64,000 nt of DNA, taken from NCBI RefSeq assembly GCF_014207745.1, contig NZ_JACHJB010000004.1, forward strand, positions 744,001 to 808,000. Direction: 5' to 3'. Made by a program: the position numbers and the translations under genes. The notes beneath the pieces are model-generated. The model saw only the letters and a list, made by a program, of their open reading frames with translations, made no database searches and had not been told where the DNA came from. This DNA is from Nonomuraea muscovyensis. Its GTDB lineage: Bacteria; Actinomycetota; Actinomycetes; Streptosporangiales; Streptosporangiaceae. Of this stretch, positions 45,545-61,978 are shown piece by piece; the first letter of the stretch is position 1, and every line of letters begins with the position of its first letter.

Positions 45545-46834
45545 TCATGTGTTCACGCCCAGCCATAGTGCGAGTGCCGTGCCGGTCTCATCTTGTCCTG
45601 GTGTGTCCTTTCCGGCCAGGTCCGCAATCGTCCAGGCGACTCTCACGACCCGATCGAGGCCGCGAGCACTCAGCGCGCCCGAGTCGAGGCAGGCGGTCAC
45701 CGGCTTCATGGCTTCGCCCGACAGCCGGTAGTCGGCGTGCAGGGCGGAGGACGGGATCTCGGCGTTGGTGCGCCAGAGGGTGCCGGAGAGCCGGTCGGCC
45801 GCTCGCTTTCGCGCTTCGAGGACCCGTTCGGCGACGACCTTGCTCGACTCGACGAACTGGCGGTCGGCCATGAGTTCGCGTCTCGAGGAACGGGCGACGG
45901 TGACCTTCATGTCGATGCGGTCGATGAGCGGGCCCGAAAGCCTGCCGAGATAGCGGCGCCTGAGCGTGGGGGTGCACTGGCAGGTGTCGGTGTGGTCCTG
46001 GGGCTGGGCGCAGGGGCAGGGGTTGGCCGCCAGCACCAGCATGAACCGCGCCGGGAACGTGACCGAGCCCGCAGACCTGGACACGGTCACCCGGCCCGAC
46101 TCCAGTGGCTGGCGCAGCGAATCGAGCACGTGACGCGGGAACTCCGGAGCCTCGTCCATGAACAGCACACCTCTGTGAGCCAGGGAGACCGCGCCGGGGC
46201 GGACGACAGTGCTGCCGCCGCCGATGATGGCGGCGGTGCTGGCCGTGTGGTGTGGGCTGACGAACGGTGGTCTGCTCACCATGGGACTGTTGGGCGGCAG
46301 TGCACCCGCGACCGACTGGATTGCGGTCACTTCGAGCGCGTGATCGAGCTCCAGGTCGGGGAGGAGGGTCGGCAGCCGTTCGGCGAGCAGCGTCTTGCCC
46401 GTGCCGGGCGGGCCGAGCATCCAGAGGTTGTGGCCGCCGGCCGCGCAGATCTCCAACGCGCGGCGCGCCACCGGCTGGCCGACCACGTCCGACAGGTCGA
46501 CCGCGGGATGGGTGGCGGGTGGGGCCGGGGCGTCGAGATCCGGTGCCAGGGGCTCCGGCGGGGCGTCTCCCCGGCGTAGCCACTCGACGAGCTGCCGCAG
46601 GTCCGCCACCGGCACGACGCGCACGCCAGGCACCAGGGCCGCCTCGGCGGCATTCGCCGATGGGATCACGACGGTGGCGTCGCCGTCGCAGGCCGCGCCG
46701 AGCACGGACGGCAGGACGCCTCGCACGGGTCTGAGGCGTCCATCGAGTCCGAGCTCACCCAGGAAGAACGGCTCGGCGATGCGCTCGGCCGGGACCACAC
46801 CGGCGGCCCCCAGGATCGCGATGGCAATGGCGAG
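45545..46834 (-). pseudogene. comM: comM (yifB), 3' part, cut off by element insertion
   Basis: Encodes ~430 residues of the Mg-chelatase-like AAA+ helicase ComM: Walker A GPPGTGKTLLAERLPTLLPDL, the sensor-rich RPPFVSPHHTAS region and the C-terminal Mg-chelatase-C domain (DRVVRVAWTIADLAGKD). The first ~83 codons are at 61732-61978. Rejoining at the AG crossover restores GSQFDLAIAIAILGAAG in frame. The fragment has no evident start signal of its own (a TTG at 46840 lies inside the element). Confidence 0.92.
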
Positions 46835-46858
46835 TGCCAAGGGCAGGCTATGGCTTAG
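46808..46858. other. attL (left junction)
   Basis: Host comM sequence up to the AG at 46833-46834, then 13 nt, then the element arm CTATGGCTTAG (46848-46858). That arm is the inverted partner (10 of 11) of the right-end arm at 61707-61717. Confidence 0.85.
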
Positions 46859-46872
46859 CTAGAAAGCAAGAC

Positions 46873-46906
46873 GGACGGGCCAGGTGTGCGACCACCGGAC
46901 CCGTCC
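46873..46906. other. Stem-loop at the left end of the element
   Basis: GGACGGGCCAGGTG (46873-46886) and CACCGGACCCGTCC (46893-46906) pair at 12 of 14 positions around a 6-nt loop. It lies between attL and the first rightward gene and, after circularisation, ~40 nt upstream of attP and the integrase. It could be a terminator or a binding site; no T-run follows. Confidence 0.55.
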
Positions 46907-46943
46907 TTGATCCCCAACCTGTCCTAGCAGGAGGAGACCCAAG

Positions 46944-47534
46944 GTGAATTTCACCACGCCTAACCACGGTCCCGCGAGGCCCCAGCTCCCGCCCACCGTC
47001 CGCGAGCGTGCCCTTGAGGCCGGCCGCCGGGCCGTCGAGGACTACGAGCGCACCTACCAGGCGGAGATGCGCGCCCACCGGAACGCGGCCCACGCCCGCC
47101 AGTCCGGTACGGCGCAGCCCGCCCGTTGGCTGGCCGACGACCCGTGCCCCGACTGGTGTGTCGGCGGCATCGACCACGAGGACGGCACACACCCCGACGA
47201 CCGCGCCCACTTCGGCCCCACGCACATCGTGGAGCTCGTCACGATGGAATCGACCGTGTCCGGACACGACCGCTGGGAGCCGGTCGAGGCGCAGATCGCC
47301 ATCGACAAGCGGTACCGCGAGCGGGAGGCGCGCGTCATCATCGGGACCGGCGACGACACGCACATCTGGGCGACCCTCAGCGAGGCCGAGGAGATCGCCA
47401 CGACGATCCTCGACATGGTGCGGCAGGCCCGCGGCACGTGGACGCCGGTCGTGCTGCCGTTCGACCCGAACGGCGGATGCCCCGACGCGACGTGCAAGAA
47501 CTGCCACCCGCTGCCGGGCGAGGTGTCCGCGTGA
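46944..47534 (+). CDS. DUF6907-like CPxWC protein
   Basis: 196 residues. The C-terminal two thirds carry DPCPDWCVGGIDHEDGTHPDD and a later TEHIVEL-like beta region, the pattern of the DUF6907 family found in Streptomyces mobile elements; a further CKNCH near the C-terminus may add a metal site. The N-terminal ~60 residues are helical and charged. Function unknown. GTG at 46944 with AGGAGGAG upstream; first gene of a tightly overlapping operon leading to the TraB-like translocase. Confidence 0.65.
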   Translation: MNFTTPNHGPARPQLPPTVRERALEAGRRAVEDYERTYQAEMRAHRNAAHARQSGTAQPARWLADDPCPDWCVGGIDHEDGTHPDDRAHFGPTHIVELVTMESTVSGHDRWEPVEAQIAIDKRYREREARVIIGTGDDTHIWATLSEAEEIATTILDMVRQARGTWTPVVLPFDPNGGCPDATCKNCHPLPGEVSA

Positions 47535-47704
47535 TGGCGGGCAAGGTCACGCTCGACCTGCTGTTCGACGTACAGGAAGTGCTTGAGCGGCACGGCTTCG
47601 CCCTGCCCAGCGACGAGCGGAAGCGGCACCTCGCGCACGCTGACACGGCGCTGGCGCTCGTGGCGCTGGTCGAGGCGTTCGAGGGACGGGGGGCGTCCTC
47701 GTGA
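47534..47704 (+). CDS. Small hypothetical protein
   Basis: 56 residues (MAGKVTLDLLFDVQEVLERH...), overlapping the upstream stop in TGATG and the next start in GTGA. Predicted largely helical and acidic/basic mixed. No known family recognised; the dense overlaps on both sides support it being real. Confidence 0.6.
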   Translation: MAGKVTLDLLFDVQEVLERHGFALPSDERKRHLAHADTALALVALVEAFEGRGASS

Positions 47705-48027
47705 CCTTCCCCCGCACCGCGGGTTGCCCCTCCTGGTGCGCTGAGCCGCACCAGGAGCCGGGCAGGCCCCACTTCGCGAACCTCGACCTGATCGAGCACC
47801 TGGACGACTCCGACTGTCTCGTCGAGGTGAACGTCCGGCAGCTCGACGGCCAGGGCGTCGTCTTGGTGCTGTTCACCGACCGGGACGGCGAGAGCACCCG
47901 CGTGGAGATGTCGCAGGAGGCGGCCGGCGTCGTCGGCTACATCCTGCGCGAGTTCGACCGCCGCGGCGCCAAGGAGTTCGGGCACCTGCTGTTCGAGGCC
48001 GCGCAACTGCTGGAGGTGACCCAGTGA
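47701..48027 (+). CDS. Second DUF6907-like CPxWC protein
   Basis: 108 residues with CPSWCAEPHQEPGRPHF near the N-terminus (the CPxWC...H motif) followed by beta strands (LVEVNVRQLDGQGVVLVLFTD). It looks like a shorter relative of the protein two genes upstream. GTG at 47701; overlaps the next gene (GTGA). Confidence 0.65.
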   Translation: MTFPRTAGCPSWCAEPHQEPGRPHFANLDLIEHLDDSDCLVEVNVRQLDGQGVVLVLFTDRDGESTRVEMSQEAAGVVGYILREFDRRGAKEFGHLLFEAAQLLEVTQ

Positions 48028-48986
48028 AGCGCGATTGGGTTCTCATCGTCTCCGTGGTGCTCGTGGCCGCGTCCACGGTCATCGCCTCGTTCACCGCTCA
48101 GGCCGGCCTAGGTCTCCTGGCCGGATGGAAGACGAGCGTCGACGCGTTCGGCGTGGAGCTGCGGCTGTCGTGGCTGCTGCCGTTGACGGTGGACGCGTAC
48201 GGCATCGGCGCTACCCGGATCGCGACGAACAAGCGGGCGTACTCGGCGGAGGTGCGCCGGCACGCGTTCGGTCACGCGCTCGCCGCGGTGGCGGTGTCGG
48301 TGGTCGCCAACGCGGTGTTCCATCTCATCGAGGCCGGCGTGATCGTGCTCGGCTCGTCGGCCTGGCTTCTGGTGGTCGCGGTGAGCATCGTCCCCCCGGT
48401 CGCCCTGGGCGGTCTGGCGCACCTGCTGAGCATCGCGGCCCGGGATGAGATCGAGTCGGCAGATGGACCGCACACAACAACTGTTGTGCCCCGACCAACG
48501 GTTGCCACCGTTACAGATGTAACGCCCGTACCTGAGGCCGTACCTGGCGTACCTGCAACCGTGGGCGAGAGCCCCACAGTTGAGGTCGAGAGAGTCGGCT
48601 ACTCCTCCGCGATCAGTTCCCCAATTGGGGAAAGCGAGCCGTTCGCGGAGCGGGAGATCGCCGTTCCCCTTCGCTTCCCTTTCGTCGTACCTGCCGTGTA
48701 CCCGCCTGTACCTGTGCAGGTCGCGCCAGTTCCCGATGCCGGGAAGTCGAACACGAGCGAGCCTGTCGAGCACGCTGGAACTGAGGGTCAGGTACACGCC
48801 GGTACGGCCGTACCGGAGCACCCGCCGATCGTGCAGAAGGCCGTCGAGGAGTTCGCCGAGACGCTGCGCGGCGGGCAGACGCCGCCGGTCCGGGAGATCA
48901 AGGCGAGGCTCGGCGTAGGTACGGACCGGGCCCGCGAGGTACGCGTGTACCTCGACCGGCTCGCCACCTCGGGGGCGTCGTCATGA
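48024..48986 (+). CDS. DUF2637 membrane protein (SpdB-like)
   Basis: 320 residues. Four predicted membrane helices in residues ~5-140, with the DUF2637 hallmark SWLLPLTVDAYGIGATR and a conserved HLIEAG region; then a ~120-residue linker rich in Val, Pro and Thr and a C-terminal helix-turn-helix-like segment (VQKAVEEFAETLRGG ... VREIKARLGVGTDRAREVRVYLDRL). DUF2637 proteins lie beside traB in actinomycete plasmids and AICEs, where Spd proteins aid spread between mycelial compartments. Confidence 0.75.
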   Translation: MKRDWVLIVSVVLVAASTVIASFTAQAGLGLLAGWKTSVDAFGVELRLSWLLPLTVDAYGIGATRIATNKRAYSAEVRRHAFGHALAAVAVSVVANAVFHLIEAGVIVLGSSAWLLVVAVSIVPPVALGGLAHLLSIAARDEIESADGPHTTTVVPRPTVATVTDVTPVPEAVPGVPATVGESPTVEVERVGYSSAISSPIGESEPFAEREIAVPLRFPFVVPAVYPPVPVQVAPVPDAGKSNTSEPVEHAGTEGQVHAGTAVPEHPPIVQKAVEEFAETLRGGQTPPVREIKARLGVGTDRAREVRVYLDRLATSGASS

Positions 48987-49216
48987 GGACCGCCTACGTG
49001 ATCACCACAGCGCGCAACCGGCGGGCCGTCCGCCGTGTCCTGGCCACCGTCGTGGCCGCCGTCATCACCGCGGTCACCTGGCTCGGCCACGTCCTGGCGC
49101 TCCTGGCCGGCGCCGTCGACGCCCTGGTGACCGCGCTGCTCGGCGTGCCCCGGATGGCGTACGGGGCCCGCCGCTTCGCCGACGTTATCCGCGAGACCTG
49201 GAAGGAGGACCTGTGA
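48983..49216 (+). CDS. Small membrane protein
   Basis: 77 residues with a basic N-terminus (TTARNRRAVRRVLATVV) and one or two hydrophobic helices (VVAAVITAVTWLGHVLALLAG, AVDALVTALLGV). Overlaps both neighbours by 4 bp. Resembles small Spd-type proteins of transfer operons in size and position only. Confidence 0.6.
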   Translation: MRTAYVITTARNRRAVRRVLATVVAAVITAVTWLGHVLALLAGAVDALVTALLGVPRMAYGARRFADVIRETWKEDL

Positions 49217-49599
49217 GCGAGCAGCAGGGCCGCAGCCGGATCCCCGAGCTGTCGGCCATCCCCTGGGAGGGCCCACGGGCCATCACCGACTACGCCCGCA
49301 TCAGCCGGAACCTGTGCCGGGACCTGGGCGAGGAGCTCAACATCGGGTCCGACGAGCTGTACGCGGTGCTGATCCGCAGCTTCAAGGGCCACCCGGTGCT
49401 GAGCGTGTTCGGCGCCCTGGACGTCCGGCTGCGGGCCCGCCGCGTCGTTAAGCGGCTCAAGAGGGCCGCCGAGCTGCAGAGGGGCGCCGGTGTGGAGCTG
49501 GTGAAGTTCCACGCCCAGTTCCGCAAGGAGTTCGTCGACATCTTGCCGGCCGCGAAGCCGGAGAAGCGGCAGAAGACGTTCAACTGGGATGACGTGTGA
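49213..49599 (+). CDS. Hypothetical protein of the transfer operon
   Basis: 128 residues, mixed charge, mainly helical, ending KPEKRQKTFNWDDV. No family recognised. GTG at 49213 overlaps the upstream stop, and its own stop overlaps the translocase start, so it is translated together with the DNA pump and may be its partner. Confidence 0.55.
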   Translation: MSEQQGRSRIPELSAIPWEGPRAITDYARISRNLCRDLGEELNIGSDELYAVLIRSFKGHPVLSVFGALDVRLRARRVVKRLKRAAELQRGAGVELVKFHAQFRKEFVDILPAAKPEKRQKTFNWDDV

Positions 49600-51614
49600 T
49601 GGCCGGGCGTACGAAGGACCTGGTGTCCGTCGAGACCGAGTCGAGCCTGTCGAAGGTCGCGGCCAAGGAGGTGTCCAAGCTCGTCACGCTGACGAGCCCG
49701 TGGGTGGCGTACGTGCTGGTGTTCGGCATCGGGTCGGCGTTCCACTTCATCCTCGACTCCGACGACCCGGACGTGGTCGCGTGGACGATGTTCCTGATGT
49801 CCGCCGCGGTGCTGGTGCTGACCGCAGTGACGTTCGGCCAGTCCCACGCCCGCGGCGTGTGGGGCAAGACCCACACCACGCTGACGACGCTGCTGGCCGG
49901 CCTGTGGGTGTGCGCGGCGACCGTCAACGGGCCCACCACGGTCGTCACCGGACGGCTGATCCTCATCGGCGGCGTCACCGTCGCCCTGACCTGGAACATC
50001 CGAACCGTCATCAGGATGAAAGGGCTCGACCAGCCTGGTGCCATCGCCGACCCGCTCGCGCTCCTGTTCGGTCAGGGCGCCGAGCGGGCGGGGATGCCCG
50101 CCGTCGAGGCGCGCACCGTCAAGGCGACCGCGCACAAGGTCGAGGGTGACGTGCAGTTGGAGCAGGGCCGCCAGGTGGCCGAGGACCTGACGCGGAAGGT
50201 CGGCTACGTCGAGTCGGGTATCGGCCTGCCGCCCGGCAGCATCACCACCGCGATAGACCCGGACGACGCCAGCAAGGCGAAGGTCGTCATCTCCGATCCG
50301 CGGGTGATGAAGAAGCCGATCCCGCGGAACTCCCCCTCGCGGCCGGGCCTGTCGATCGCCGACCCGCTCAACATCGCCCTCTGGCAGGACCTCGATGAGG
50401 TCGAATACTGCGTGGTCGGCCACCACCTGCAGATCATGGGGCAGACCGGTAGCGGCAAGAGCATCGGCGGAGCGTGGAACATCCTCGCCGAGGTCGTCAC
50501 CCGCTATGACGTGGCGGTGTTCGCCGGCGACATCACCAAGGGAGAGCAGACGCTCGGCCCGATGCGTGAGGCGCTGCACCGGTTCGAGACGACCAAGGCC
50601 GGCGTCAAGGCGATGCTGCGCGAGCTGCAAGAGCAGGTGAAGGAGCGCACCAACTACCTGGCGTCCAAGCAGCTGCAGAAGTGGAAGCGCGGATGCGGCC
50701 TGACGTACTGGATCGTCTGGTTGGAGGAGTTCCCGGACATCTTCGACTGCCTCAGCGACAAGGAGCAGGACGCGTTCCTGTCGATGCTGAAGGCGATCCG
50801 GTCCGCCGGCGGCACGATCGTCATGAGCTTGCAGCGGGCCGACTACTCGCAGATGCCGACCCTGGCGCGCGGCCAGCTCGCCAAGATGTGCTTCGGCGTC
50901 GAGTCGGCCCATGACGCGTCGTTCGGCCTCTCAGAGGCGCAGCAGGACGCCAACGCCCGCCCCGAGCTGTGGAGCAACAAGCAGCCCGGTATGGCCTACC
51001 TCGACGCCCCCAGCATCGAGGACACGCGGATCGCGATGCCGCTACGCACCTACGCGTGGGGCCTCACAGAGGAGGGGCGCGTGGACGACGAGTTGGCCAA
51101 CACGCAGATGCGCGCCCACGCCGCCCAGTGGCCGGCCGCGGCCAAGCCGGTCGACGTCACCACGGCGGCGCTGTCGAGGCTGCACGACGGCGGCCAGGCC
51201 GCCACGGCGCCGGCCGGGCTCCTGGAGGCCGACGCCGAGGACGACGACGAGGAGGTGCGCAACGTGGCCAGCGAGTACCTGGAGACCGACGACCCGGACC
51301 CGGAGGTGCGGGGCGGCCTGGACGACGAGATCCCCGACCTGCCCGAGGGCGACCCGCCGATGACGTTCGCGCCGCCGGCGCAGCGGATGACCGCCGAGGA
51401 ACGCGGAGCGGCGCTCATCAAGCACCTGCAAGACATGTGGGACGGCGGCGCCCGCGACTTCTCCAGCGGCGACCTGAAGCCGCTGTGGGAGACGACGGAC
51501 ATGTCCCGCGCGTGGGTGCAGAAGACGCTCAAGAAGCTCGTCGAGGCGACCGTGCTTGGCGATTACGACGAGGACGCTCAGCGGTACCTCATGCCCACCC
51601 GTCCCGAAGTCTGA
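49599..51614 (+). CDS. traB: FtsK/SpoIIIE-type DNA translocase (TraB-like)
   Basis: About 671 residues. Four hydrophobic segments (~33-140), then an FtsK-type motor: Walker A GQTGSGKS (~281-288), Walker B YWIVWLEEFPDIF (~370-382), arginine-rich sensor region QRADYSQMPTLARGQ. The C-terminal ~75 residues (AALIKHLQDMWDGG ... WVQKTLKKLVEATVLGDY) form a winged-helix like the gamma domain with which FtsK and TraB read short DNA repeats. TraB pumps double-stranded DNA between mycelial cells in Streptomyces conjugation. The repeat cluster at 51926-52072 is its likely target. Confidence 0.85.
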   Translation: MAGRTKDLVSVETESSLSKVAAKEVSKLVTLTSPWVAYVLVFGIGSAFHFILDSDDPDVVAWTMFLMSAAVLVLTAVTFGQSHARGVWGKTHTTLTTLLAGLWVCAATVNGPTTVVTGRLILIGGVTVALTWNIRTVIRMKGLDQPGAIADPLALLFGQGAERAGMPAVEARTVKATAHKVEGDVQLEQGRQVAEDLTRKVGYVESGIGLPPGSITTAIDPDDASKAKVVISDPRVMKKPIPRNSPSRPGLSIADPLNIALWQDLDEVEYCVVGHHLQIMGQTGSGKSIGGAWNILAEVVTRYDVAVFAGDITKGEQTLGPMREALHRFETTKAGVKAMLRELQEQVKERTNYLASKQLQKWKRGCGLTYWIVWLEEFPDIFDCLSDKEQDAFLSMLKAIRSAGGTIVMSLQRADYSQMPTLARGQLAKMCFGVESAHDASFGLSEAQQDANARPELWSNKQPGMAYLDAPSIEDTRIAMPLRTYAWGLTEEGRVDDELANTQMRAHAAQWPAAAKPVDVTTAALSRLHDGGQAATAPAGLLEADAEDDDEEVRNVASEYLETDDPDPEVRGGLDDEIPDLPEGDPPMTFAPPAQRMTAEERGAALIKHLQDMWDGGARDFSSGDLKPLWETTDMSRAWVQKTLKKLVEATVLGDYDEDAQRYLMPTRPEV

Positions 51615-51631
51615 GCCCAAGGAGACAGACC

Positions 51632-51877: not shown

Positions 51878-51925
51878 GGCTCGCACGGCTGCGCGTGGGA
51901 TGCGCGCGAACCGCTTTTTGATCAT

Positions 51926-52072: not shown

Positions 52073-52149
52073 GCCCCCCGGACAGAGGTCCCGCGAGGAC
52101 CTGAGTGGCCGGGATACGTGCCCGACTTCTCCGCGACGCCGCGAAGAAC

Positions 52150-54248: not shown

Positions 54249-54253
54249 GCTGG

Positions 54254-55735
54254 TCACTGGTTCTGCAGGATGCGGAAGCCGAGATCGTTCACCGAGCCGG
54301 ATCCGATGCGCGCCCACGCGAACAGGCCGCGCTGACCGGTCGGGCGGCCGGCGGCGCCGAGCATGTGCGGCACCAGCTCGACTGACATGCCGGCGCGCTG
54401 CGCGACGAGGAAGTTCTTCCAGTCGCCGACGATGAGCAGGTTCGCCGCACCAACGGAGCTGGTGAAGTCGGCCATCCAGTCGTTGAGGAAGTAGCGGCGG
54501 CCGAACAGGCGCGGGATCGCCTCGTCGGTGAGGTCGACGGTGAAGTTTGATCCCATGGTGGTGCCGAAGTTGCGGACCTCGTTCTGTACGTCGGTGCTCG
54601 ACATCCAGGCGACGCGGTCGCCGCGGTTGCGGTACTTAATGGGCAGGGCGTCCCACAGCTTGTATAGGTCGGCGGCGACGAATGCGCCGTCTGTGGTGGG
54701 CAGCACCTCGACGGCCGCGTTGGCGTCGAGGGCGGTCACGATGCCGGTCGGCTCGTTGACGCCGGTGCCGAGGGTGGTCTTCTGGGAGACGAGCTCCATG
54801 TATCCCTCGCGGAGCATCGTCGCGAGCTCGTCGGCGAATCCGGGGTAGTCCATGCCGATTTCGATGGAGAACGGCACGAATCCGCGGGCGGTGTGGACGG
54901 GCACCTCTGGCTGGGCGAGCGTTGGCGAGTCGTCGCTGACTTCCGCCCCTTCGGTGTCGAACGACCAGGAGACGCCGGCGGAGGAGACGCCCTTCCAGCT
55001 ATCGGTGGTGATGGTGACCAGTTGGGCGATGTCGAGGATGTCGTTCGGCGATCCTTGCGCGGTCATGATGATGCTCGGGTCGATGAACACCGGGACGCCG
55101 AACCCGCCGGCGGAGTCGGTGCCGCCCGACATGGCGCGAAATTCCTCGAACGCGCGCAGCGCGCGGGACTCGTTCTCGGTGAGGATCGCCTTGGGGTCGG
55201 TGGTGACGCGCATGAACGCGGACCGGTAGTCGTCGTTTTCGGTGAGCAGGATGCGGCGGGCGATGAGCGATCCGTCGCACTGCGTGTGGTTGGTCAGGTT
55301 CGACCGAACCAGCTTGTCGACCTTGTCCATCGCCGGGGTGGGCAAGTTGAGGTCCTTGTGGCGGTACTCCAGCGCGGCCAGCGCCTTGTCCCGTACCACC
55401 TGCGGGCGTAGCGCCAGCGCGTCGGATCCGTCGAACGGGGCCACGCGTTGCATGAACTGCGGTGCGTCCTTGGGGTTGTCGCCAGTCATGATGATCTGCG
55501 AGCGGTCGATCTTCACCTCGTCGTGGAGCACTTCGAGCTTCGAGATCTCCTGCATGTGCTCCTTGTACTGGCGCTGCTCGGAGGCGAGCAGGTCACGGCC
55601 CGCAAAGGTGGCCGTCTTCATGATGTCGTCCTTGCTGCGGTGGTGCTGGACCAGCGCATCGGTGACGGTCTCAGCGGTGATTTCGTCGATGCGGCTGCGC
55701 AGGTCGGCAGCCGTGGGCAGCTTGAGCTTGGGCAC
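54254..55735 (-). CDS. HK97-family phage major capsid protein
   Basis: 493 residues. The N-terminal ~100 residues are helical and charged (delta/scaffold-like); the HK97 fold follows: TDSAGGFGVPVFIDPSIIMTAQ, VPVHTARGFVPFSIEIGMDYPGF, ELVSQKTTLGTGVNEPTGIV, LYKLWDALPIKYR and the C-terminal GDWKNFLVAQRAGMSVELVPH. It would form an icosahedral shell. GTG at 55735 with AAGG ~8 nt upstream. A GGGGGC/GCCCCC hairpin (55846-55860) lies upstream. No prohead protease or portal gene is present. Confidence 0.92.
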   Translation of the reverse strand: MPKLKLPTAADLRSRIDEITAETVTDALVQHHRSKDDIMKTATFAGRDLLASEQRQYKEHMQEISKLEVLHDEVKIDRSQIIMTGDNPKDAPQFMQRVAPFDGSDALALRPQVVRDKALAALEYRHKDLNLPTPAMDKVDKLVRSNLTNHTQCDGSLIARRILLTENDDYRSAFMRVTTDPKAILTENESRALRAFEEFRAMSGGTDSAGGFGVPVFIDPSIIMTAQGSPNDILDIAQLVTITTDSWKGVSSAGVSWSFDTEGAEVSDDSPTLAQPEVPVHTARGFVPFSIEIGMDYPGFADELATMLREGYMELVSQKTTLGTGVNEPTGIVTALDANAAVEVLPTTDGAFVAADLYKLWDALPIKYRNRGDRVAWMSSTDVQNEVRNFGTTMGSNFTVDLTDEAIPRLFGRRYFLNDWMADFTSSVGAANLLIVGDWKNFLVAQRAGMSVELVPHMLGAAGRPTGQRGLFAWARIGSGSVNDLGFRILQNQ

Positions 55736-55913: not shown

Positions 55914-56165
55914 CTACTCGCCATTGCCGACATTCCCGGCATGCGACGCGAGGTTGAGCGACATCTCGGCGAGGAACTTGTCGGCGTCGGGGGTGCGGTC
56001 GAGGAAGTAGTCGAGGACTTTGAGCATGCTGGCGAGCGTCATGCCGGCCTGCTCGGGTGTGGTCAGTTCGGCCAGCAGGGCGGAGACTGCCGGCCAGTCC
56101 TGGCGGCGGTGGTGCTGGACGAGCGCGAGGGTACGGCCGTGGATGGCGGCGTACTCAGCGGACAT
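55914..56165 (-). CDS. Hypothetical protein between capsid and replication genes
   Basis: 83 residues, helical (MSAEYAAIHGRTLALVQHHR ... MTLASMLKVLDYFLDRTPDADKFLAEMSLNL). No family recognised. Starts 90 bp downstream of the second 31-bp box. Possibly an assembly or regulatory partner of the capsid. Confidence 0.5.
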   Translation of the reverse strand: MSAEYAAIHGRTLALVQHHRRQDWPAVSALLAELTTPEQAGMTLASMLKVLDYFLDRTPDADKFLAEMSLNLASHAGNVGNGE

Positions 56166-56302: not shown

Positions 56303-56683
56303 TCAACGGCTTGTGGTCGGGCTTGCCAGCTCGTCACGGCCGGGCGGGAAGACGCCGTGCTCGCGGTGCAGGCCACGCATCACCTGAAACATCTGCATCG
56401 TGTTGTAGCGAGCCATGAGCTCCTTGGCTCGGCGGCGGGCTCCGGGCTGCCATTCCTTGGGGACGTTGAACGTCTTCTGCACGCCGAGCCGCATGGCGGG
56501 CAGTTGCCGTTCCCATTCGGCGTTGAACTCGTCCAGGTCGCGGGCGAGCAGCAGGCCGAGGGTCCGTGGGGGGACGATGACCTCCCCGTCGAGCGGGTCG
56601 CCGGGCCGGTCGAGTACGGCGATGTGGGGGAACAGGTCCTCGTATCCGGGGACGGGCAGGGTGGGCCGGGCGGACGTGGTCAT
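56303..56683 (-). CDS. Hypothetical protein of the packaging side
   Basis: 126 residues (YEDLFPHIAVLDRPGDPLDGEVIVPPRTLGLLLARDLDEFNAEWERQLPAM ... REHGVFPPGRDELASP). No family recognised. ATG at 56683 with GGAGA upstream. Lies between the origin-like repeats and the second 31-bp box. Confidence 0.5.
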   Translation of the reverse strand: MTTSARPTLPVPGYEDLFPHIAVLDRPGDPLDGEVIVPPRTLGLLLARDLDEFNAEWERQLPAMRLGVQKTFNVPKEWQPGARRRAKELMARYNTMQMFQVMRGLHREHGVFPPGRDELASPTTSR

Positions 56684-56701
56684 GGATGTTGTCTCCGTTC
56701 C

Positions 56702-56885
56702 GCGAGAAAAGGTAAGTAAGCGAGATATGCCTTGTGACCTGCGGTGAGAGCACTTCTCAGCTCGCGAGGTAAGTGCGAGAAAAGGCGTCGGGTTGGACTT
56801 AGCTCGCACTTTGCTCGCGAGCTTTGGTGATACGTCCATGCAGGTCAGACGCCTTTTCTCGCCTTCTTTGCTTTACTCGCCAGGT
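56702..56885. other. Origin-like repeat region
   Basis: AT-richer than its surroundings. A perfect 15-bp inverted repeat GCGAGAAAAGGCGTC (56775-56789) / GACGCCTTTTCTCGC (56848-56862); a further GCGAGAAAAGG at 56702; two CTCGCGAG palindromes (56761, 56814); two GGTAAGT motifs. It abuts the end of the DUF3987 gene and the replication operon. A plausible replication origin or partition-like site of the element. Confidence 0.5.
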
Positions 56886-58117
56886 TCGGCGAACGTGAGG
56901 ACCTTGGCGGGACGGCCCGCTGTCTTGATCTCGTCCTCAGTGAAGCCAGGGAACTCCAACAGGTCCTTGATCAGGTCTGCCCGCTGTTGCCGGTTGTGGT
57001 GGCTGAACAGCTTGGTCACGTCCGTCTTCTTCAGGCCGTCCGTGCCCGCGTTCCGGACGGCAGTCATGAGCTTGTCCAGGTCCGGGTTTCCGGTTGAGGT
57101 GCCCAGGATGTAGGCAGCGCTTGCGTGGGAGTAGTTGACCAGCGCGTAGCCGGCGCGGAGGTGCTGCTCCTCGACCACCGTGAAGCCGTCGAGGAGGGCG
57201 TACACCATGGCCAGACGCCGGCAGTAGGCCGCGGCCCTGGCGGTGAACTCCGCAAGGGGACCGTCTTCCCCGTCGCTGCTCAGTTCGGGGTAGTAGTCCT
57301 CTTCCCATAGCTTCTCGGCGCGCCCCGACATGCCCACCGCTCCGCACGCTCGCGCGTGAGCGATGCGGTCACGGAAGGTCTGCGCGTGGGCTTGGACTAC
57401 GTCCGTCCGTGCGCCGGTCGGCAGGGCAAGTAAGGCGTTGCGGTGGGAGTAGATCGGAAGGAAACGGTTGTAGGTGCCGCCGGCCAACTCGCGGTCACTC
57501 AGCCTGAGACGGAACTCCCTCGGTGGGATGTGCGCCACGATGCCGATGTGCGCCCCGGTCGCCACGAGCTTCTTCTTGGTCATGACGCCGAGGTGCTCGC
57601 CATCCCAGGCAAGGCGGAGGACGGCGGGCAGGCTGTTGCCCTCGCGGGCACACCGGGCCATCGTTGAGGCGAACTCCAGCTCCATGACGAGTCGCCGCTT
57701 GTCTCTGTCTGGGTCGTCGGGGTCATCCTTGACGTCCTCGATAAGCCCTTCCCCGCTGGACAGGCCCGAGGTGAGGAACGGCGCGTGAGAGAACTCCGCA
57801 TCGGCACCGGCGATGATCCGCATGGCTGTGCCTTTGGAGGCGCCCTTGCGGCCGGAGTTCGTCTTGCCGACGATCATCGTCCAGACGAGAGCGGGGTGCC
57901 GGTCGTCGCCGATCTGCACGTACGGCTTGCGCCCCATCATCACGCTTGCGGCAACCAGCAGTGTCGCGAGGACTGACACGGGGTCGGCCTCGGTGGTGGG
58001 GTCGAGGTCCCGAACAACCTCGCCGATGAAGCCGCAGAACACGTCCGGATCGGGTGTCGGTCCCGGACGCTCGGGGCGGTTCTGCCCGCTGTACATCGGA
58101 TCGATACGGTCGCTCAC
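56873..58117 (-). CDS. DUF3987-type ATPase/helicase-like replication protein
   Basis: 414 residues with a P-loop variant VGKTNSGRKG (~85) and a RecA-like body (VMELEFASTMAR, GEHLGVMTKKK, HIGIVAHIPPREFR), then a C-terminal helical/winged part. DUF3987 proteins partner Prim-Pol primases in phages and AICEs. GTG at 58117 overlaps the primase stop (GTGA), so both are co-translated. Confidence 0.75.
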   Translation of the reverse strand: MSDRIDPMYSGQNRPERPGPTPDPDVFCGFIGEVVRDLDPTTEADPVSVLATLLVAASVMMGRKPYVQIGDDRHPALVWTMIVGKTNSGRKGASKGTAMRIIAGADAEFSHAPFLTSGLSSGEGLIEDVKDDPDDPDRDKRRLVMELEFASTMARCAREGNSLPAVLRLAWDGEHLGVMTKKKLVATGAHIGIVAHIPPREFRLRLSDRELAGGTYNRFLPIYSHRNALLALPTGARTDVVQAHAQTFRDRIAHARACGAVGMSGRAEKLWEEDYYPELSSDGEDGPLAEFTARAAAYCRRLAMVYALLDGFTVVEEQHLRAGYALVNYSHASAAYILGTSTGNPDLDKLMTAVRNAGTDGLKKTDVTKLFSHHNRQQRADLIKDLLEFPGFTEDEIKTAGRPAKVLTFAEPGE

Positions 58118-58896
58118 GCGCTCCTCCTGGTGGTCCTGAGCGCGGAGCGCACGGTACGGAGGGCCTCGCGCTGGTCGAGGCCGATGGATTGGGCAACGGT
58201 CACCAGCTCGTCAAGGTCGCTCTCGGCGGCGCCGTTCTCCAGTGCACGGCAGCACGCCCAAAACAGGGAGCTGTTGCGGTTTCCCTCGGCCTGCGCGGCC
58301 AGCCATGCCGCGAGGCCGGGGATGCCGGCTCCTTCTGGTCGGGGCCGACCGAAAGTCCGCACGGGGGATGTCCGGGGCGGCGCGAGCAGGTCCTTGACGG
58401 CTGACCAGTTGAGCATTCCCGCGGCGCTGCCCTCGTGGACGAAGCTGTACGGCCTGCCGTTGACCTCGCTCGGCGGGGCGAGCACATACCCGCCCGACGC
58501 CTTGAAGTCGATGTGGTGTGCCTTCAGCCGGCCGCACGCCTGGTCGCTGCCGGCGAAGTAGCCATGCATGCCGCCGCGGGGCGTGGCGACGATCGCGAGA
58601 GGCTCGGGGATGAGTCCGGCCCGCTTGAGCTGGTTGAACGCCGGGTAGCCGGTGCCGCTCGGCTCCACGTCAACGTCGAGGACGTCGAATGTTGCAGCGC
58701 CAGTGGGGATCGCGACGTTCGCGGCCGGATACCGCGTCCACCAGCGCCGGACATGCTCAACATCGAGGGTCGCGTCCTTGAAGCCGCGCGGGACACAGAC
58801 GCCAAGCGGCGCCTTCTCCCCGGGCTCGCAGGGGAACACCGGCCAGCCTCGGCCGACGTAGGCGAGGGCGGCAGCCAGCATCTTGGATTCGCTCAC
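58114..58896 (-). CDS. Bifunctional primase/polymerase (Prim-Pol)
   Basis: 260 residues. Prim-Pol fold: ALAYVGRGWPVFPCEPGEKAP (~10-30), catalytic DVLDVDVEPSGT (~65) and TPRGGMHGYFAG with the conserved His (~108), then a C-terminal helical region. Primes and extends element DNA, a typical AICE replication initiator (RepPP type). GTG at 58896 overlaps the upstream stop and has GGAGGG. Confidence 0.85.
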   Translation of the reverse strand: MSESKMLAAALAYVGRGWPVFPCEPGEKAPLGVCVPRGFKDATLDVEHVRRWWTRYPAANVAIPTGAATFDVLDVDVEPSGTGYPAFNQLKRAGLIPEPLAIVATPRGGMHGYFAGSDQACGRLKAHHIDFKASGGYVLAPPSEVNGRPYSFVHEGSAAGMLNWSAVKDLLAPPRTSPVRTFGRPRPEGAGIPGLAAWLAAQAEGNRNSSLFWACCRALENGAAESDLDELVTVAQSIGLDQREALRTVRSALRTTRRSA

Positions 58897-59240
58897 GCTG
58901 CCCTCCGAGTACGGCGGGCGCGCGGCGCGTGCAGGTACAGCTCGTACTTGGTGCCGCACCGGGCGGTACGGCGGAGCAGCGCGGGGGCCGGCGCCTTGAC
59001 GCGGTGGGCGTGGTAGTAACCGCACTCGCATTCACTGTCGAGCACGATTAACGCCGTGACCATGCCCCACGCGGGCGGGTATGCGGTTGCGCTGCGAACG
59101 AGCGGGAGTTGCCGACCCGGAGTGTTCCGCTTGTCGCCCCCGTTGTGTACCTTGGTCTTGTCGTTGGTGGCCTTGATGGTCATCGAGTTCGAGAGCCGCT
59201 CCCTGGCCGGAGCGGCTTTCGTGTTCTCAGGCGGCGACAT
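58893..59240 (-). CDS. Small protein with CxCGxxHxHR motif, upstream of primase
   Basis: 115 residues. Basic N-terminus, then SECECGYYHAHRVK and CGTKYELYL near the C-terminus, which together resemble a zinc ribbon. ATG at 59240 with GAGGAGG 7 nt upstream. Translationally coupled to Prim-Pol; may help it bind DNA. Confidence 0.6.
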   Translation of the reverse strand: MSPPENTKAAPARERLSNSMTIKATNDKTKVHNGGDKRNTPGRQLPLVRSATAYPPAWGMVTALIVLDSECECGYYHAHRVKAPAPALLRRTARCGTKYELYLHAPRARRTRRAA

Positions 59241-59360: not shown

Positions 59361-59537
59361 TCAGGCCGCCTCGCCCCTGGCCTGAGCCTCCAGGCGTTCG
59401 ACCTCTGTGAGCGGGAACCGCCAGTCGCGGCCGTAGCGGTGGCCCTTGAGCCGGCCTGAGTACACCCAGCGCCGGATGGTGGACGGGTCAACGCGGAACC
59501 GCGCTGCCACTTCCTTGGAGAGCAGGTCCTCAGACAT
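59361..59537 (-). CDS. xis: Excisionase-like HTH protein (BldC/MerR-like)
   Basis: 58 residues: SKEVAARFRVDPSTIRRWVYSGRLKGHRYGRDWRFP, the single winged HTH of MerR/BldC-type excisionases. ATG at 59537 with AGGAGGG 6 nt upstream. Such proteins tip integrases towards excision or act as small regulators; serine integrases usually need a distinct recombination directionality factor, so this could instead control transcription. Confidence 0.7.
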   Translation of the reverse strand: MSEDLLSKEVAARFRVDPSTIRRWVYSGRLKGHRYGRDWRFPLTEVERLEAQARGEAA

Positions 59538-59656
59538 GCGTCCCTCCTGTCGCATCGCGTGGATTACGTGCACGACGAGCGTAGCGCATGTTGCAGAGTT
59601 TGGTGCAGACCTGGATATGCAGTTATGCCGACCGCCAAAACTGCTAGGTTGGTGGC
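59538..59656. promoter_or_regulatory. Divergent promoter region of xis-like and 59657 genes
   Basis: TGCAG motifs at 59592, 59605 and 59619, including GGTGCAGAC (59602-59610) shared with the GntR gene region. A TAGGTT box lies 5 nt before the GTG at 59657, fitting a leaderless mRNA. Confidence 0.4.
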
Positions 59657-60250
59657 GTGCCGCAAGCCGTGAAGACGCGCATCAACTTCGAGACCGGGTA
59701 CGCCGAGACCGAGGGCGGGACCCCGCTTGTCCGGGTAGGCGATCGGCTGCTTCCGCAGCGCATCACCGTGGTGGTGCCTTGTAGAGCAGGTCAGCCACGC
59801 ATAACAGCTCGCCTGGAGGTGCTGGACGGGATACCGCAGTGCCGGGAACTATCCTTCGCCAGCCTCGAGAACGGCCGGGAGATTAAGCAGCTCGACCTGC
59901 GGGACATCAGCATCGCCGACCTGGTCGAACGCACGTTCGCCCTGTTCTCGCAGCGCGTCATCCTTGAAGAGAGTGACCATATGGTCGCGGTGCAAGACTT
60001 CGGTAGTGGAGCGCGCGCCGAGGCTGCGCGCATAATCGGCCAAGCACGCAAGGGTAAAGGCGCCCGGAAGATCACGCCGGCCTTCCTCGCTGAAGTGGCG
60101 AAGGTATACCGGGAGCACGGGGAAAAGAACCCTACGCAGGCTGTACAGCGTGCCTTTGATGTGAGCCCGCGCATGGCGGGGAACTACATCCGGAAGGCCC
60201 GCGACCTGGAGCTACTGCCCGAGGTCACGGACGGTCGACGGAAACGCTAG
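59657..60250 (+). CDS. Hypothetical DNA-binding-like protein next to integrase
   Basis: 197 residues. N-terminal beta-rich part, a central helical stretch (GAEAARIIGQARKGK-like), and a C-terminal HTH-like segment (FLAEVAKVYREHGEKNPTQAVQRAFDVSPRMAGNYIRKARDLELLP). The last part resembles small terminase or repressor HTHs. Converges on the integrase with a 4-bp stop overlap. A regulator or a directionality factor is possible. Confidence 0.55.
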   Translation: MPQAVKTRINFETGYAETEGGTPLVRVGDRLLPQRITVVVPCRAGQPRITARLEVLDGIPQCRELSFASLENGREIKQLDLRDISIADLVERTFALFSQRVILEESDHMVAVQDFGSGARAEAARIIGQARKGKGARKITPAFLAEVAKVYREHGEKNPTQAVQRAFDVSPRMAGNYIRKARDLELLPEVTDGRRKR

Positions 60251-61698
60251 GCGCGAACCCTCCACTCGACTCGGATGTACTTCGGGTCGAAGTATCCCCA
60301 CTCTTTGCCGTACTCGGGCGTCCACCCCTCGGGACGCCCCAGCTTCCCCGGCAGGATGATGACGCGCATGATCTGCGATATGACGGCTCGCCGACGGTCG
60401 AGGTCGAGGCCATCCCAGACGGCTTGAGGGTCACCCTTGCGGAACGGCGCCAACGCAGTCACGCGGGCTGCGGCAGCGTCGGCCTGGTCGAGCTCTGAGC
60501 GACGCTGAGCGGTCTTCTCGTTGGCGGCGATGAGCTGAGCTTTGGTCATCTGGCCGGCCGCGAACATCTCGGCGGCCTCCTCGTCACGGATGCGCAGCGC
60601 TTCACGCTCAAGGACACGGGCCCGCGCTGCGGAGTCGTCCCCCTTCCGCTCGAACGCCTCGACGGCGCCGGGACGGGAGAGCCACTCGACGGCCAGCATG
60701 GACACGTACCGGTCGAGGTGTATTGGACTGCGAGCTACGTGGTTACGGCCGGCGGCACACCGGTAGGACGGAACCGTCTTCCGCTGACCACCCTTGCTTA
60801 GGCCCGCGGTCGCGACAACAACTGTTGTCTTCTCCTCCTCCGCCTCGACGCAGATGCCACACTCATAGAGCCCTGAGCCCATCCACCGACGCTGCGGGCC
60901 GGGTGTCGTCCGTCGAGACGGGTCGTTGAGCAGCGCGACGATGGCCCGCCACTTGGTCTCCTCGATGATCGCTGGCCACTTCGCCGGCCCGACGATCTCG
61001 CCGCGGTGCTCCATCAGGCCAGCGTTGCGAGGCCGCAGGAAGACTCTCCGGACGCTGTTGGGGGTCCACTTGCCTCCGGTGGCCGTCGTCACGCCTCGGG
61101 CGTTCCAGTCGCGCACAACAGCATGGACACTCAGTCCGGACAGGAGGTCGTCTCCCCTGGCGTCGAGCTCGGCGGCCTCCGTAGTCCGCACGGTCACCCC
61201 GTCAGGCTCGAACCCGAACGGCCTACGTCCCCCGAACCACTCGCCGGCGGCGGCCTTCTGCAGCTTCTTCGCCTGCTGGCGCTCGCTCATGTGCTCGACC
61301 TCATATCGTGCGAAGTTGCCAAGGTTGCGGGCGTTCATTCGGCCGGCCGGCGTGGACAGGTCGAGCTGACCAGTCCGCACGGTCTGCGTGTCGACGCCGT
61401 GACGCTCCACGATCTGGATGTACTCCTCTAACTCCGTGGGCGATCGGTGGAGTCTGTCGGTGTGCCAGGCCAATACACCGGTTGCTGAGCCTGCTCTGAG
61501 ATCCTCAAGCATGCGTTTGTAGCCGGGCCTCGGCTTGCCCGAGTAGGCGGACATGTCGTTGTCGTCGTAGACCGCCACGACGTTCCAGCCGAGGCGAGCG
61601 GCGAGATTCTCGCAGTCGATTCGCTGCCGTTCAACGCCTAGACCTGCGCCGATACGGTCCCGAGAGATGCGGACGTAGATGATCGCGTCACGTTGCAT
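60247..61698 (-). CDS. int: Large serine integrase
   Basis: 483 residues. Catalytic Ser12 in DAIIYVRISRD, resolvase domain through ~140 (SAYSGKPRPGYKRMLEDL; VLAWHTDRLHRSPTEL), recombinase domain, zinc-ribbon cysteines in GLYECGIC (~280) and YRCAAGRNH (~310), and a coiled-coil region (~345-400). ATG at 61698 puts the nucleophile at residue 12, as in phiC31 integrase; an upstream ATG at 61725 is less likely. It starts 4 nt after the comM stub stop and 33 nt from the crossover. Confidence 0.93.
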   Translation of the reverse strand: MQRDAIIYVRISRDRIGAGLGVERQRIDCENLAARLGWNVVAVYDDNDMSAYSGKPRPGYKRMLEDLRAGSATGVLAWHTDRLHRSPTELEEYIQIVERHGVDTQTVRTGQLDLSTPAGRMNARNLGNFARYEVEHMSERQQAKKLQKAAAGEWFGGRRPFGFEPDGVTVRTTEAAELDARGDDLLSGLSVHAVVRDWNARGVTTATGGKWTPNSVRRVFLRPRNAGLMEHRGEIVGPAKWPAIIEETKWRAIVALLNDPSRRTTPGPQRRWMGSGLYECGICVEAEEEKTTVVVATAGLSKGGQRKTVPSYRCAAGRNHVARSPIHLDRYVSMLAVEWLSRPGAVEAFERKGDDSAARARVLEREALRIRDEEAAEMFAAGQMTKAQLIAANEKTAQRRSELDQADAAAARVTALAPFRKGDPQAVWDGLDLDRRRAVISQIMRVIILPGKLGRPEGWTPEYGKEWGYFDPKYIRVEWRVRA

Positions 61699-61702
61699 AG
61701 CG

Positions 61703-61978
61703 TTAACTATGCCATAGCTTGACATTCGTTAGATCGAACTGGCTGCCTCGCTTGGGCAGACTCGCCGGAAACAGGCTCACGGTGATGCGGGCGTCGGGCC
61801 AGGGATAGTGGCTGTTGACCATCGCCGACCTGACCCGTTCGCGCGCCTCGCTCAGGGCCGTGTCGGGGAGGCCGATGAGGTGGATGCCGGCCAGTCCGTT
61901 GCCGACGTCGGCCTCCACCTCGACCGTACGGCCGGTCACTCCGACCAGGGCGACGCTGCGGGTGCGTGCGACCGCCAT
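61703..61978 (-). pseudogene. comM: comM (yifB), 5' part, fused to element end
   Basis: Codes for residues 1-82 of ComM (MAVARTRSVALVGVTGRTVEV ... ASLPKRGSQFDL), then continues into the element for TNVKLWHS before TAA at 61703-61705. The truncated peptide is only the N-terminal domain and cannot be an active helicase. It starts directly after yraN and still has the normal host expression signals. Confidence 0.9.
61707..61757. other. attR (right junction)
   Basis: Element arm CTATGCCATAG (61707-61717), 13 nt, AG crossover (61731-61732), then comM sequence beginning ATCGAACTGG. Joining the two arms gives a 50-bp attP with symmetric 11-13-2-13-11 spacing, the size expected for large serine integrases. 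Confidence 0.85.

Follow-up and report, generated by a model that had tools for sequence, protein, structure and literature searches.

Mobile genetic elements are classed by how they travel, by conjugation or in virions, and a single integrase-bounded unit in the genome of Nonomuraea muscovyensis carries signature genes of both. The window examined here is a stretch of 64,000 nt (GCF_014207745.1, NZ_JACHJB010000004.1, 744,001-808,000, forward strand), in which a preliminary description made from the letters alone had placed an AICE kit and phage capsid and packaging genes within one mobile unit. That proposal is now strongly supported: among the 45 TraB loci compared, 13 count as hybrids of this sort, and 11 of the 13 are closed by an integrase. 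Our own reading, to which we assign a probability of about 0.55, is that the window element is a hybrid between an AICE and a phage satellite, which would conjugate by TraB and also exploit the assembly of a helper phage.

One element with exact ends

The integrated element comprises 14,898 bp inside the host gene yifB/comM (Table 1). Comparison of both junctions with the intact yifB of a Nonomuraea relative whose site is empty (G122; yifB protein 90% identical) places the crossovers at a 2-bp CT core, exactly at the ends 46833..61732 proposed earlier. Two adjacent elements are ruled out, since a single att pair spans both halves and a sister element occupies the same site. A transfer module is followed by a convergent operon with Xis, Prim-Pol, DUF3987, the major capsid protein (MCP), its small neighbour and the terminase small subunit (TerS). 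Of the features that define AICEs, site-specific integration at att sites, for which the integrase may be of the tyrosine or the serine type, is represented by the serine integrase and its att pair, and the replication module, which may be RepSA, RepAM or Prim-Pol with a partner, by Prim-Pol and DUF3987. The excisionase-like protein also matches a TerS family (phrog_57, E 7.2e-6). A promoter and terminator scan gave nothing above chance level.

Table 1. Features of the integrated element and its host gene, in window coordinates
Feature	Position	Strand	Evidence
Host yifB/comM, C-terminal part	45545..46840	-	PF01078 E 9.1e-89
Whole element	46833..61732	.	attL core CT 46833-46834; attR core CT 61731-61732
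DUF6907 protein	46944..47534	+	PF21848 E 1.2e-14
Second DUF6907-like protein	47701..48027	+	PF21848 E 0.013, under cut-off
DUF2637/Spd-like membrane protein	48024..48986	+	PF10935 E 7.9e-4, under cut-off
Small membrane-like protein	48983..49216	+	Open frame; relatives adjoin TraB in several loci
TraA-like transfer protein	49213..49599	+	NCBIfam NF041213 (plasmid TraA) E 1.3e-8, under cut-off
TraB dsDNA translocase, Walker A intact	49596..51614	+	NCBIfam NF041214; alignment
clt-like cluster, six GGTGCCAC sites, both strands	51934..52072	.	Word scan and control windows
KorSA-like GntR regulator	52150..52689	-	PF00392 E 6.4e-17, frame residues 109-170
Small protein conserved next to TraB	52474..52791	+	Relatives in ownC1, G221, G229
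Small protein, last gene common to second element	52788..53006	+	94% in ownC1
Small protein overlapping end of TerS	53123..53371	-	Open frame; no family match above cut-off
Terminase small subunit (TerS)	53368..53748	-	phrog_1496 E 3.5e-19
Small MCP-linked protein, downstream of MCP in phages	54003..54317	-	No domain match; conserved linkage
HK97-type MCP, 493 aa	54254..55735	-	PF05065 E 6.2e-26; TIGR01554; PDB 9lw6 E 4.6e-70
Small protein	55914..56165	-	No Pfam or PHROG match
Protein without assigned family	56303..56839	-	Residues 2-44 common to G229, same place
DUF3987 replication protein	56873..58117	-	PF13148 E 6.1e-8; 86% identical in G229
Prim-Pol primase/polymerase	58114..59031	-	PF09250 E 5.9e-36
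Excisionase-like HTH_17 protein	59361..59573	-	PF12728 E 2.6e-12; phrog_66 excisionase E 1.5e-8
Divergent regulator-like protein, kept with this integrase	59657..60250	+	No family match; 66% G003, 70% G101
Large serine integrase	60247..61725	-	PF00239 E 1.8e-28, PF07508 E 3.2e-10; 78% in G003
Host yifB/comM, N-terminal part	61703..61978	-	Junction comparison with G122

Transfer module and candidate clt sites

TraB matches NF041214 (plasmid_TraB) over residues 30-668 (E 2.2e-114, 383 bits), under the strict 800-bit equivalog cut-off of that model, and annotated Streptomyces TraB proteins at 28-29% over 95-98%; by these two likenesses it provides the FtsK-like TraB translocase of an AICE, while its match to Pfam FtsK itself (E 0.057) falls below cut-off. 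The rest of the kit named in the preliminary description (integrase, Prim-Pol, DUF3987 and GntR) was recovered by Pfam. The DUF2637/Spd-like protein held up less well, as its PF10935 match exists and is weak, under the family cut-off.

Downstream of TraB lies a cluster of GGTGCCAC sites. Where a cluster is counted as at least three sites in the 1,050 bp that follow TraB, one is present in 22 of the 45 TraB loci (11/13 hybrids, 4/10 phage-like loci, 7/22 others) and in 0 of 866 control windows, which are not blind because the 8-bp word was chosen after inspection of the same loci. Many of the 23 loci lacking a cluster so defined have more distant TraBs. The cluster is a candidate clt tied to TraB, whose binding there is predicted, and it offers a testable candidate for an AICE clade. 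A function as GntR operator is unlikely, given that the plain AICEs G225 and G218 have the cluster downstream of TraB and the GntR gene upstream. Within the window, the GntR gene, with its real start probably near 52400, adjoins the cluster, which could act as an operator there.

Capsid and packaging genes

The MCP frame is open through 493 codons and can be aligned to 15 family relatives over their matched stretches; its TIGR01554 match reaches 117.6 bits (cut-off 27.5), and a profile built from the window MCP and 42 relatives finds a solved capsid, the match taking in profile positions 2-465 of 467 (E 1.1e-106). An AlphaFold model based on 16 sequences was of low quality (pLDDT 54, pTM 0.37); the protein is called a capsid by sequence profiles, which make it a true HK97 relative. 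A pseudogene or an unrelated fold is ruled out by PF05065, TIGR01554, the relatives' alignment, the capsid profile and PDB 9lw6, and the HK97 capsid gene of the preliminary description thus stands with its frame intact. What had been called a capsid-linked protein has no domain match among Pfam, PHROG and NCBIfam profiles, but 54 of 80 viral contigs (the best 80 of 575 with this MCP) encode a homologue no more than 1 kb downstream of the MCP. The small terminase-like protein proved to be a TerS by PHROG profile, its Pfam Terminase_4 match (E 0.0065) being under cut-off.

The MCP precedes TerS in the window operon, and phage-like regions of G099 and PA05 have it after the terminase genes. Since this MCP type is also rare in TraB-bearing virus records (only one of nine, some of them fragments), the gene was probably acquired. 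Among the element proteins scanned, no portal, large terminase (TerL), tail or lysis genes, the set that marks a tailed phage or prophage, were found, a PHROG scan of 10 right-half proteins having given no match to tail or lysis functions; nor was a protease or connector found in the element. With portal, TerL, protease and connector not found, a capsid of its own would need a helper accepting this MCP, and we know of none.

It had been foreseen that the missing head genes might lie elsewhere in the host. A genome search covering three families found no portal (PF04860) and no TerL (phrog_9), and phrog_2 gave only two marginal partial matches (E 4.7e-4 and 7.7e-4); no second MCP of the same family was found, and no cognate resident prophage by these combined searches. 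A tblastn search of 50,697 isolate-phage records at E 0.01 found nothing to match the window TerS, and TraB had no match in isolate phages at E 1e-5. The viral contig L253, which has an MCP alongside a brief TraB-like match, looked by eye like an ordinary partial phage. In the one TraB plasmid examined, a 48-kb Nonomuraea gerenzanensis plasmid (37% TraB), none of 49 annotated features is named as a phage structural gene; an N. gerenzanensis record also holds an unannotated stretch with 69% TraB.

A family of relatives

The loci compared are the top TraB matches of several searches with some weaker ones, 47 in all (one search alone gave 138 TraB-positive genomes), reduced to 45 for the tree by dropping the near-copies V143 and G254c. 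Short contigs or partial TraB led to the omission of G234, G305, G138, G103, G012 and G059, and L115, L116, L120, L142 and the named copies L121-L141 were left out as duplicates. Labels were assigned within ~20 kb of TraB by a custom gene finder and blastp clusters; those for integrase and endolysin are HMM-checked for the window and PA05 and blastp-based for the remaining loci, and labels for the TerS of G229, G214, G271 and G300, and for the tape measures (TMP) of G214 and G005b, likewise come from blastp clusters. Some loci are cut by contig ends, where "none seen" does not mean absent. An order-level TraB search matched 60 of 297 genomes, all listed in the same family.

The 13 hybrids hold TerS, TerL, tape-measure or capsid genes, with no endolysin recognised. 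On the point of shared gene order, raised at the outset as a check, the 11 hybrids delimited by an integrase (12.3-18.4 kb) show a recurrent design: a transfer module, a convergent minus-strand block with phage genes, and Int; for G214 and G005b no integrase lies within the fetched stretch. The slot for phage genes is variously filled with TMP alone, TerS alone, TerS with TerL, or TerS with MCP, with HNH adjoining TerS-TerL; TerS occurs in nine of the 13 and MCP in one only. A short TMP-like match beyond the integrase of G098 was counted as none seen. Plain AICEs within the same TraB clade had no recognised TerS, TerL or MCP. Another ten loci look phage-like, which was verified for one of them, a 47-kb contig that carries TraB; G232 is a complete-looking TraB phage with the same convergent layout. 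The premise that capsid satellites and TraB elements inhabit separate worlds is contradicted by this phage and by the hybrid family. Hybrids and phage-like loci interleave on the TraB tree, where the hybrid label needs at least six changes; hybrids have therefore originated, or been put together anew, several times with the same kinds of gene.

A second element in the same genome (ownC1) has a 98.5% identical TraB and a tape-measure-like gene instead; the two transfer modules share 93.5-94.5% DNA identity, and beyond a break at 53064 the right halves are unrelated. The tape-measure call is weak in ownC1 (PHROG E 1.5e-5) and made by blastp linkage only in G221. In N. deserti, a sister element with TerS and TerL occupies the same yifB site. 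The clt-like cluster, the second element and the family of relatives all go beyond the preliminary description.

Selection figures refer to genes of relatives and not to the window element's own MCP or TerS. Between the N. deserti and N. jiangxiensis elements, TerL and TerS are under purifying selection (dN/dS 0.18 and 0.29; TraB 0.31), and the TMP pair G123/G101 gives 0.34. TMP and TerS pairs of 31-44% identity give 0.59-0.92, near saturation, and a coiled gene before TerS 1.53. In the hybrid G005a, the TraB frame meets a stop codon towards its end.

How the element may travel

The serine integrase and Xis would excise the element, and Prim-Pol/DUF3987 would replicate it. TraB, under KorSA-type control, would act on the clt-like cluster and pump dsDNA to neighbouring hyphae. 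Were a tailed phage to develop in the same cell, proteins of the putative morphogenesis cassette (TerS, HK97 MCP and MCP-linked protein, at the distal end of the replication operon) could join its assembly line, with TerS directing the helper's large terminase onto element DNA and the MCP forming or joining shells; the element would then also exit in particles, at the helper's cost. Conjugation combined with helper-phage packaging is the best reading. The sequence itself shows a single mobile unit with intact genes, clt-like sites, conserved architecture and purifying selection on the TerS/TerL of two relatives, while transfer, expression, a helper and packaging are inferred.

This hybrid reading is favored by the exact, integrase-defined ends of the unit at a named attB; by the TraA, TraB and GntR matches with a clt-like cluster in 22/45 loci; by the same layout in 11 hybrids, whose phage genes are packaging or assembly parts; by the relatives' purifying selection, the MCP profile match and the phage-like pairing of MCP and linked protein; and by two elements in one genome with shared transfer modules and unrelated right halves. 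Against it stand the MCP in only 1/13 hybrids with no cognate resident prophage found, the lone tape-measure gene of the second element, which offers no obvious aid to packaging, the weak ownC1 and G221 calls, the dN/dS values of 0.59-0.92 and 1.53, the G005a stop, and a GGTGCCAC word picked post hoc with 23/45 loci lacking the cluster. More tentatively, Streptosporangiaceae may harbor a dual-route class, in which AICE-type conjugative elements also travel in hijacked virions and exchange genes with TraB/clt phages, themselves possibly mating through the mycelium particle-free.

The phage genes could instead be anti-phage decoys, a mismatched MCP, TerS or TMP poisoning incoming phage assembly in dominant-negative fashion and protecting host and element, which would move by TraB only. 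A slot with differing single assembly parts suits interference better than self-packaging, and no resident helper was found by the PF04860, phrog_9 and phrog_2 searches; however, TerS recurs in 9/13 hybrids as in packaging-redirecting satellites, and the TerS-TerL with HNH of G229 is a near-complete packaging set, beyond what a decoy needs. No PADLOC model matched among 10 element proteins, in a library that would not hold such decoys. On balance we regard decoys as rather unlikely.

Less probable again is that the hybrids are worn-down TraB prophages, sustained by conjugation while structural genes decay and leftover phage genes lose their role. The layout of G232 and the interleaving of hybrid and phage-like TraBs would fit such an origin, but two relatives' TerL/TerS are under purifying selection, frames are intact, the MCP (in 1/9 TraB virus records, before TerS) was probably acquired, and the same gene kinds recur across at least six label changes. 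It is very improbable that the phage proteins serve the conjugation machine, as a peptidoglycan-cleaving TMP aiding TraB through the wall might, or build a shell for something other than DNA delivery: the G123 tape measure does bear an NlpC/P60 domain, yet phage tape measures usually have such domains, it is implausible that TerS, TerL or MCP take part in a TraB pore, and plain AICEs of the same clade have none of these three recognised. An accidental juxtaposition of AICE and prophage remnant, to which the modular swapping of halves might point, is scarcely credible given the single att pair around both halves (internal att sites were looked for by repeat scan only) and the N. deserti sister at the same site with another phage gene set.

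Should either route of the hybrid be confirmed, conjugative elements could become phage parasites, or the reverse, by one module swap; this would suggest an origin for satellites and provide a mycelial system for measuring both transfer modes of one element.

Comparison with known systems

A TraB transfer module and phage assembly genes in one element were not found in the literature searched. PICIs are defined by integrase, regulator, excisionase and primase/replication genes in order, and by their own TerS or a capsid-redirecting gene with no lysis or tail genes. The window element has this gene order, its regulator having no family match, and a TerS by PHROG with no tail or lysis match among 10 right-half proteins scanned. 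Capsid-forming PICIs have TerS, TerL, portal, protease, MCP and connectors together; here only TerS, MCP and the linked protein were found. Mycobacterial phiRv1/phiRv2 are short elements with integrase, primase-like genes, TerS and HK97 MCP and, to our knowledge, no TraB, and the Streptomyces plasmid-phage pZL12 combines phage genes with transfer on a large replicon.

The window element resembles PICIs and capsid-forming PICIs, a group reviewed in PMC11389934, in its size near 15 kb, its Int-regulator-Xis-primase order, its distal TerS or capsid gene and the absence of lysis genes among those found; unlike PICIs it has a TraB module, and unlike capsid-forming PICIs it lacks portal, protease and TerL. 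With AICEs of the pSAM2 and SLP1 kind, as portrayed in the available part of PMC3218068, it shares integrase, Prim-Pol and partner, TraB/FtsK-type translocase, KorSA-like GntR and, in candidate form, clt, but it differs in having TerS and HK97 MCP inside the unit; "capsid" and "terminase" are absent from the main text of that 2011 survey, as available. In the portion available of a 2022 Streptomyces survey (PMC9513070), "phage" is one AICE cargo class, capsid and terminase do not appear, and the authors state that for pSAM2 a clt motif had yet to be described. The Streptomyces satellite phages Mulch and Flayer, in the excerpted account of PMC10690885, are likewise actinobacterial satellites encoding their own encapsidation genes; they are without key replication genes, whereas the window element is integrated and conjugative and has such genes. 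Prophage Phi1207.3 of Streptococcus pyogenes, as presented in the accessible portion of PMC4260502, is a phage-type element whose transfer fits the definition of conjugation by a mechanism there called unexplained, while the window element has TraB and clt-like sites.

Integration site and ends of the element

The genome of the host, a Nonomuraea of the Streptosporangiaceae, measures 9.23 Mb in 5 contigs, and within it the window element breaks the yifB/comM reading frame in two (see table). An empty site is seen in G122, a family genome with an uninterrupted yifB whose protein is 90% identical, and the dinucleotide CT is common to both junctions and to this empty site. The comparison confirms the ends and size given in the preliminary description, a length of 14,898 bp. 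Large serine integrases typically use a 2-bp core, and the element's own integrase lies at the right end. Excision should restore yifB/comM. Given that an element with a serine integrase also adjoins a long yifB frame in G300, another family genome, yifB looks like a hot spot for insertion.

Features of the window element and its flanks
Feature	Position	Strand	Remark
yifB/comM, C-terminal part	45545-46840		
CT crossover, left	46833-46834		
Block shared with second host element	46979-53064		93.5-94.5% DNA identity, two blocks
TraA-like gene	49213-49599	plus	
GGTGCCAC cluster	51934-52072	both	six copies
Last small gene	53123-53371	minus	
Linked protein gene	54003-54317	minus	
Xis gene	59361-59573	minus	
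yifB/comM, N-terminal part	61703-61978		
CT crossover, right	61731-61732		
Tandem copies	62759-63006		62-bp period, just beyond right end
Repeat	63135-63192		15-bp repeat

A transfer module beside phage genes

By profile searches, the left half carries on the plus strand two DUF6907 genes, a DUF2637 gene, a small membrane-like gene, a TraA-like gene and TraB; the second DUF6907 match and the DUF2637 match both lie under the cut-off. The Walker A motif of TraB (GxxGxGKS, 282-289) is invariant in an alignment of nine relatives. Downstream of TraB lies the cluster of the 8-bp word GGTGCCAC, adjoined by a GntR regulator gene; one further copy occurs elsewhere in the whole 64-kb window. The word was picked by 8-mer counts downstream of TraB in 13 loci, before the control test, and a cluster was counted where at least three copies fall in the 1,050 bp that follow TraB. 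Such clusters occur in 22 of 45 TraB loci (11/13 hybrids, 4/10 phage-like, 7/22 others; layouts described below) and in none of 866 control windows from the same sequences. Two reports describe clt as repeated 8-bp motifs bound by TraB via its C-terminal winged helix (PMC10191066, PMC12857230), and the cluster is read here as a putative clt.

The right half runs on the minus strand in the order Xis, Prim-Pol, DUF3987, two unknowns, HK97-type major capsid protein (MCP), linked protein, small terminase (TerS) and a last small gene, with short overlaps of Prim-Pol with DUF3987 and of TerS with the last gene. The MCP frame shows no interruption across its 493 codons; its product reaches 117.6 bits with TIGR01554 and can be aligned with 15 Streptosporangiaceae relatives at 31-63% identity. 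Searched as a profile of 43 sequences, the MCP matches the capsid structure 9lw6 at E 1.1e-106 and, at E 4.2e-8, the capsid Rcc01687, a gene transfer agent protein; the AlphaFold model of the window MCP was too poor for use. Of 80 viral contigs (the best 80 of 575), 54 have the linked protein less than 1 kb downstream of the MCP, and a match to it stands beside the MCP in 5 of 10 family loci compared, those of the closest MCP relatives. Two of these, G099 and G133, were inspected and by eye are phage regions. Among the ten right-half proteins scanned, PHROGs recognised no portal, large terminase (TerL), protease, tail or lysis protein.

Three layouts of TraB loci

TraB relatives are present in 138 of 341 Streptosporangiaceae genomes (E 0.001). 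Genes beside TraB were mapped in 47 gathered loci, comprising the top matches and some weaker ones, and layouts were counted over 45. In plain actinomycete integrative conjugative elements (AICEs; for example G225, G218, G252), genes after TraB lie mostly on the same strand, with a tyrosine integrase at the end. Phage-like loci (10/45) carry an endolysin in a convergent block, in most cases alongside tail or tape-measure genes; the label denotes an endolysin-type gene and was verified in one locus, that of Nonomuraea sp. PA05. Its 47-kb contig encodes, by PHROGs, MCP, portal, TerL, minor head, tape measure, minor tail, endolysin and primase, together with TraB and six GGTGCCAC sites. This contig 71 (47,073 bp; L062+L075+L076) resembles a complete phage with TraB and clt-like sites; it has no exact terminal overlap and no integrase recognised by eye, and could be either a phage-plasmid or a prophage interrupted at repeats.

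Hybrids (13/45) have a convergent block with packaging, tape-measure or capsid genes and no recognised endolysin; 11 of the 13 close with an integrase and, measured from the first transfer gene recognised, are 12.3-18.4 kb long. TerS occurs in nine (window, G003, G229, G123, G071, G005a, G214, G271, G300), a tape measure in seven (ownC1, G221, G123, G005a, G005b, G101, G214), TerL in two and MCP in one, the window. PHROGs confirm TerS of G003, G071, G123 and G005a, the HNH gene of G229, and TerL of G003 (N. deserti, E 1.2e-49) and G229 (N. jiangxiensis, E 5.4e-56); tape-measure matches are strong for G123, G005a and G101, weak for ownC1 and absent for G221. The tape measure of one small hybrid (L064:6622-10632) has a C-terminal NlpC/P60 peptidase domain. 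The union of both toolkits in one unit, as first proposed for the window, is real, beyond chance and general within this family.

Module exchange, selection and history

The host's own genome holds a second element (ownC1; G000 contig C1:282900-299400, L057-L058), whose similarity to the window's transfer module ends immediately before the packaging genes; past the break it carries a 969-aa tape-measure-like gene and, at its end, a tyrosine integrase. The N. deserti element is inserted at this yifB site as well; its integrase is 78% identical to the window's, it shares the regulator, and it has TerS and TerL in place of the window's MCP and TerS. The DUF3987 of N. jiangxiensis is 86% identical to the window's, and its TerS-TerL are 83-85% identical to those of N. 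deserti. These comparisons show that genes for transfer, integration, replication and assembly are exchanged as blocks. Against the C1 copy, dS is 0.52 for the TraA-like gene and 0.06 for neighbouring TraB, which suggests mosaic exchange inside the transfer module as well.

Selection was gauged by Nei-Gojobori dN/dS on relatives' genes, the window MCP having no near copy. Between N. deserti and N. jiangxiensis, values of 0.18 (TerL), 0.29 (TerS) and 0.31 (TraB) argue that the TerS-TerL pair, at least, is kept for use. Tape measures of G123 and G101 give 0.34; tape-measure and TerS pairs of 31-44% identity give 0.59-0.92, near saturation, and the coiled gene preceding TerS gives an unreliable 1.53 at 26% identity.

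On an IQ-TREE tree of 45 TraBs, well supported branches force at least six label changes for hybrids and at least seven for phage-like loci. The three labels jointly need 14 changes against a shuffled mean of 19.5 (as low in 0/200 shuffles), so labels are partly clustered and far from single origins. The N. deserti hybrid TraB is sister to the PA05 phage TraB (support 98/93). The TraB pump has moved several times among plain AICEs, hybrids and phage-like loci. A window-type MCP occurs in one of nine TraB-bearing virus records, some of them fragmentary, and the window capsid gene therefore probably derives from another phage.

Mode of spread and comparison with known elements

Membership of the TraB family and the clt-like sites point to conjugation, and the nature of the phage genes carried points to use of a helper phage; judged from gene content, the window element most likely combines the two. 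In the host genome, PF04860 and phrog_9 found no resident helper, and phrog_2 gave two marginal partial matches, not convincing. The serious rival is that the phage genes serve as anti-phage decoys, a reading favoured by the lone tape measure, which is hard to account for by packaging.

A capsid gene also occurs in a stretch of ~8-9 kb at 52% GC in G142, a family genome (C1 ~3212-3221 kb; L029-L030), with Prim-Pol, HNH-like, 496-aa HK97 MCP and serine integrase genes and no TraB recognised; it appears to be a capsid-carrying, satellite-like element. Among the literature matches listed, judged by titles, term counts and the openings of abstracts and with subscription journals thinly covered, none describes AICEs with capsid or terminase genes, an absence not thereby proven, and none of the AICE papers listed contains the term "major capsid". 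The main text of a 2011 AICE survey contains neither "capsid" nor "terminase" (PMC3218068); the same holds for the text of a 2022 Streptomyces survey, where "phage" is one AICE cargo class (PMC9513070). The combination found in the window element is, as far as this literature shows, a new one that unites two known kinds of element.
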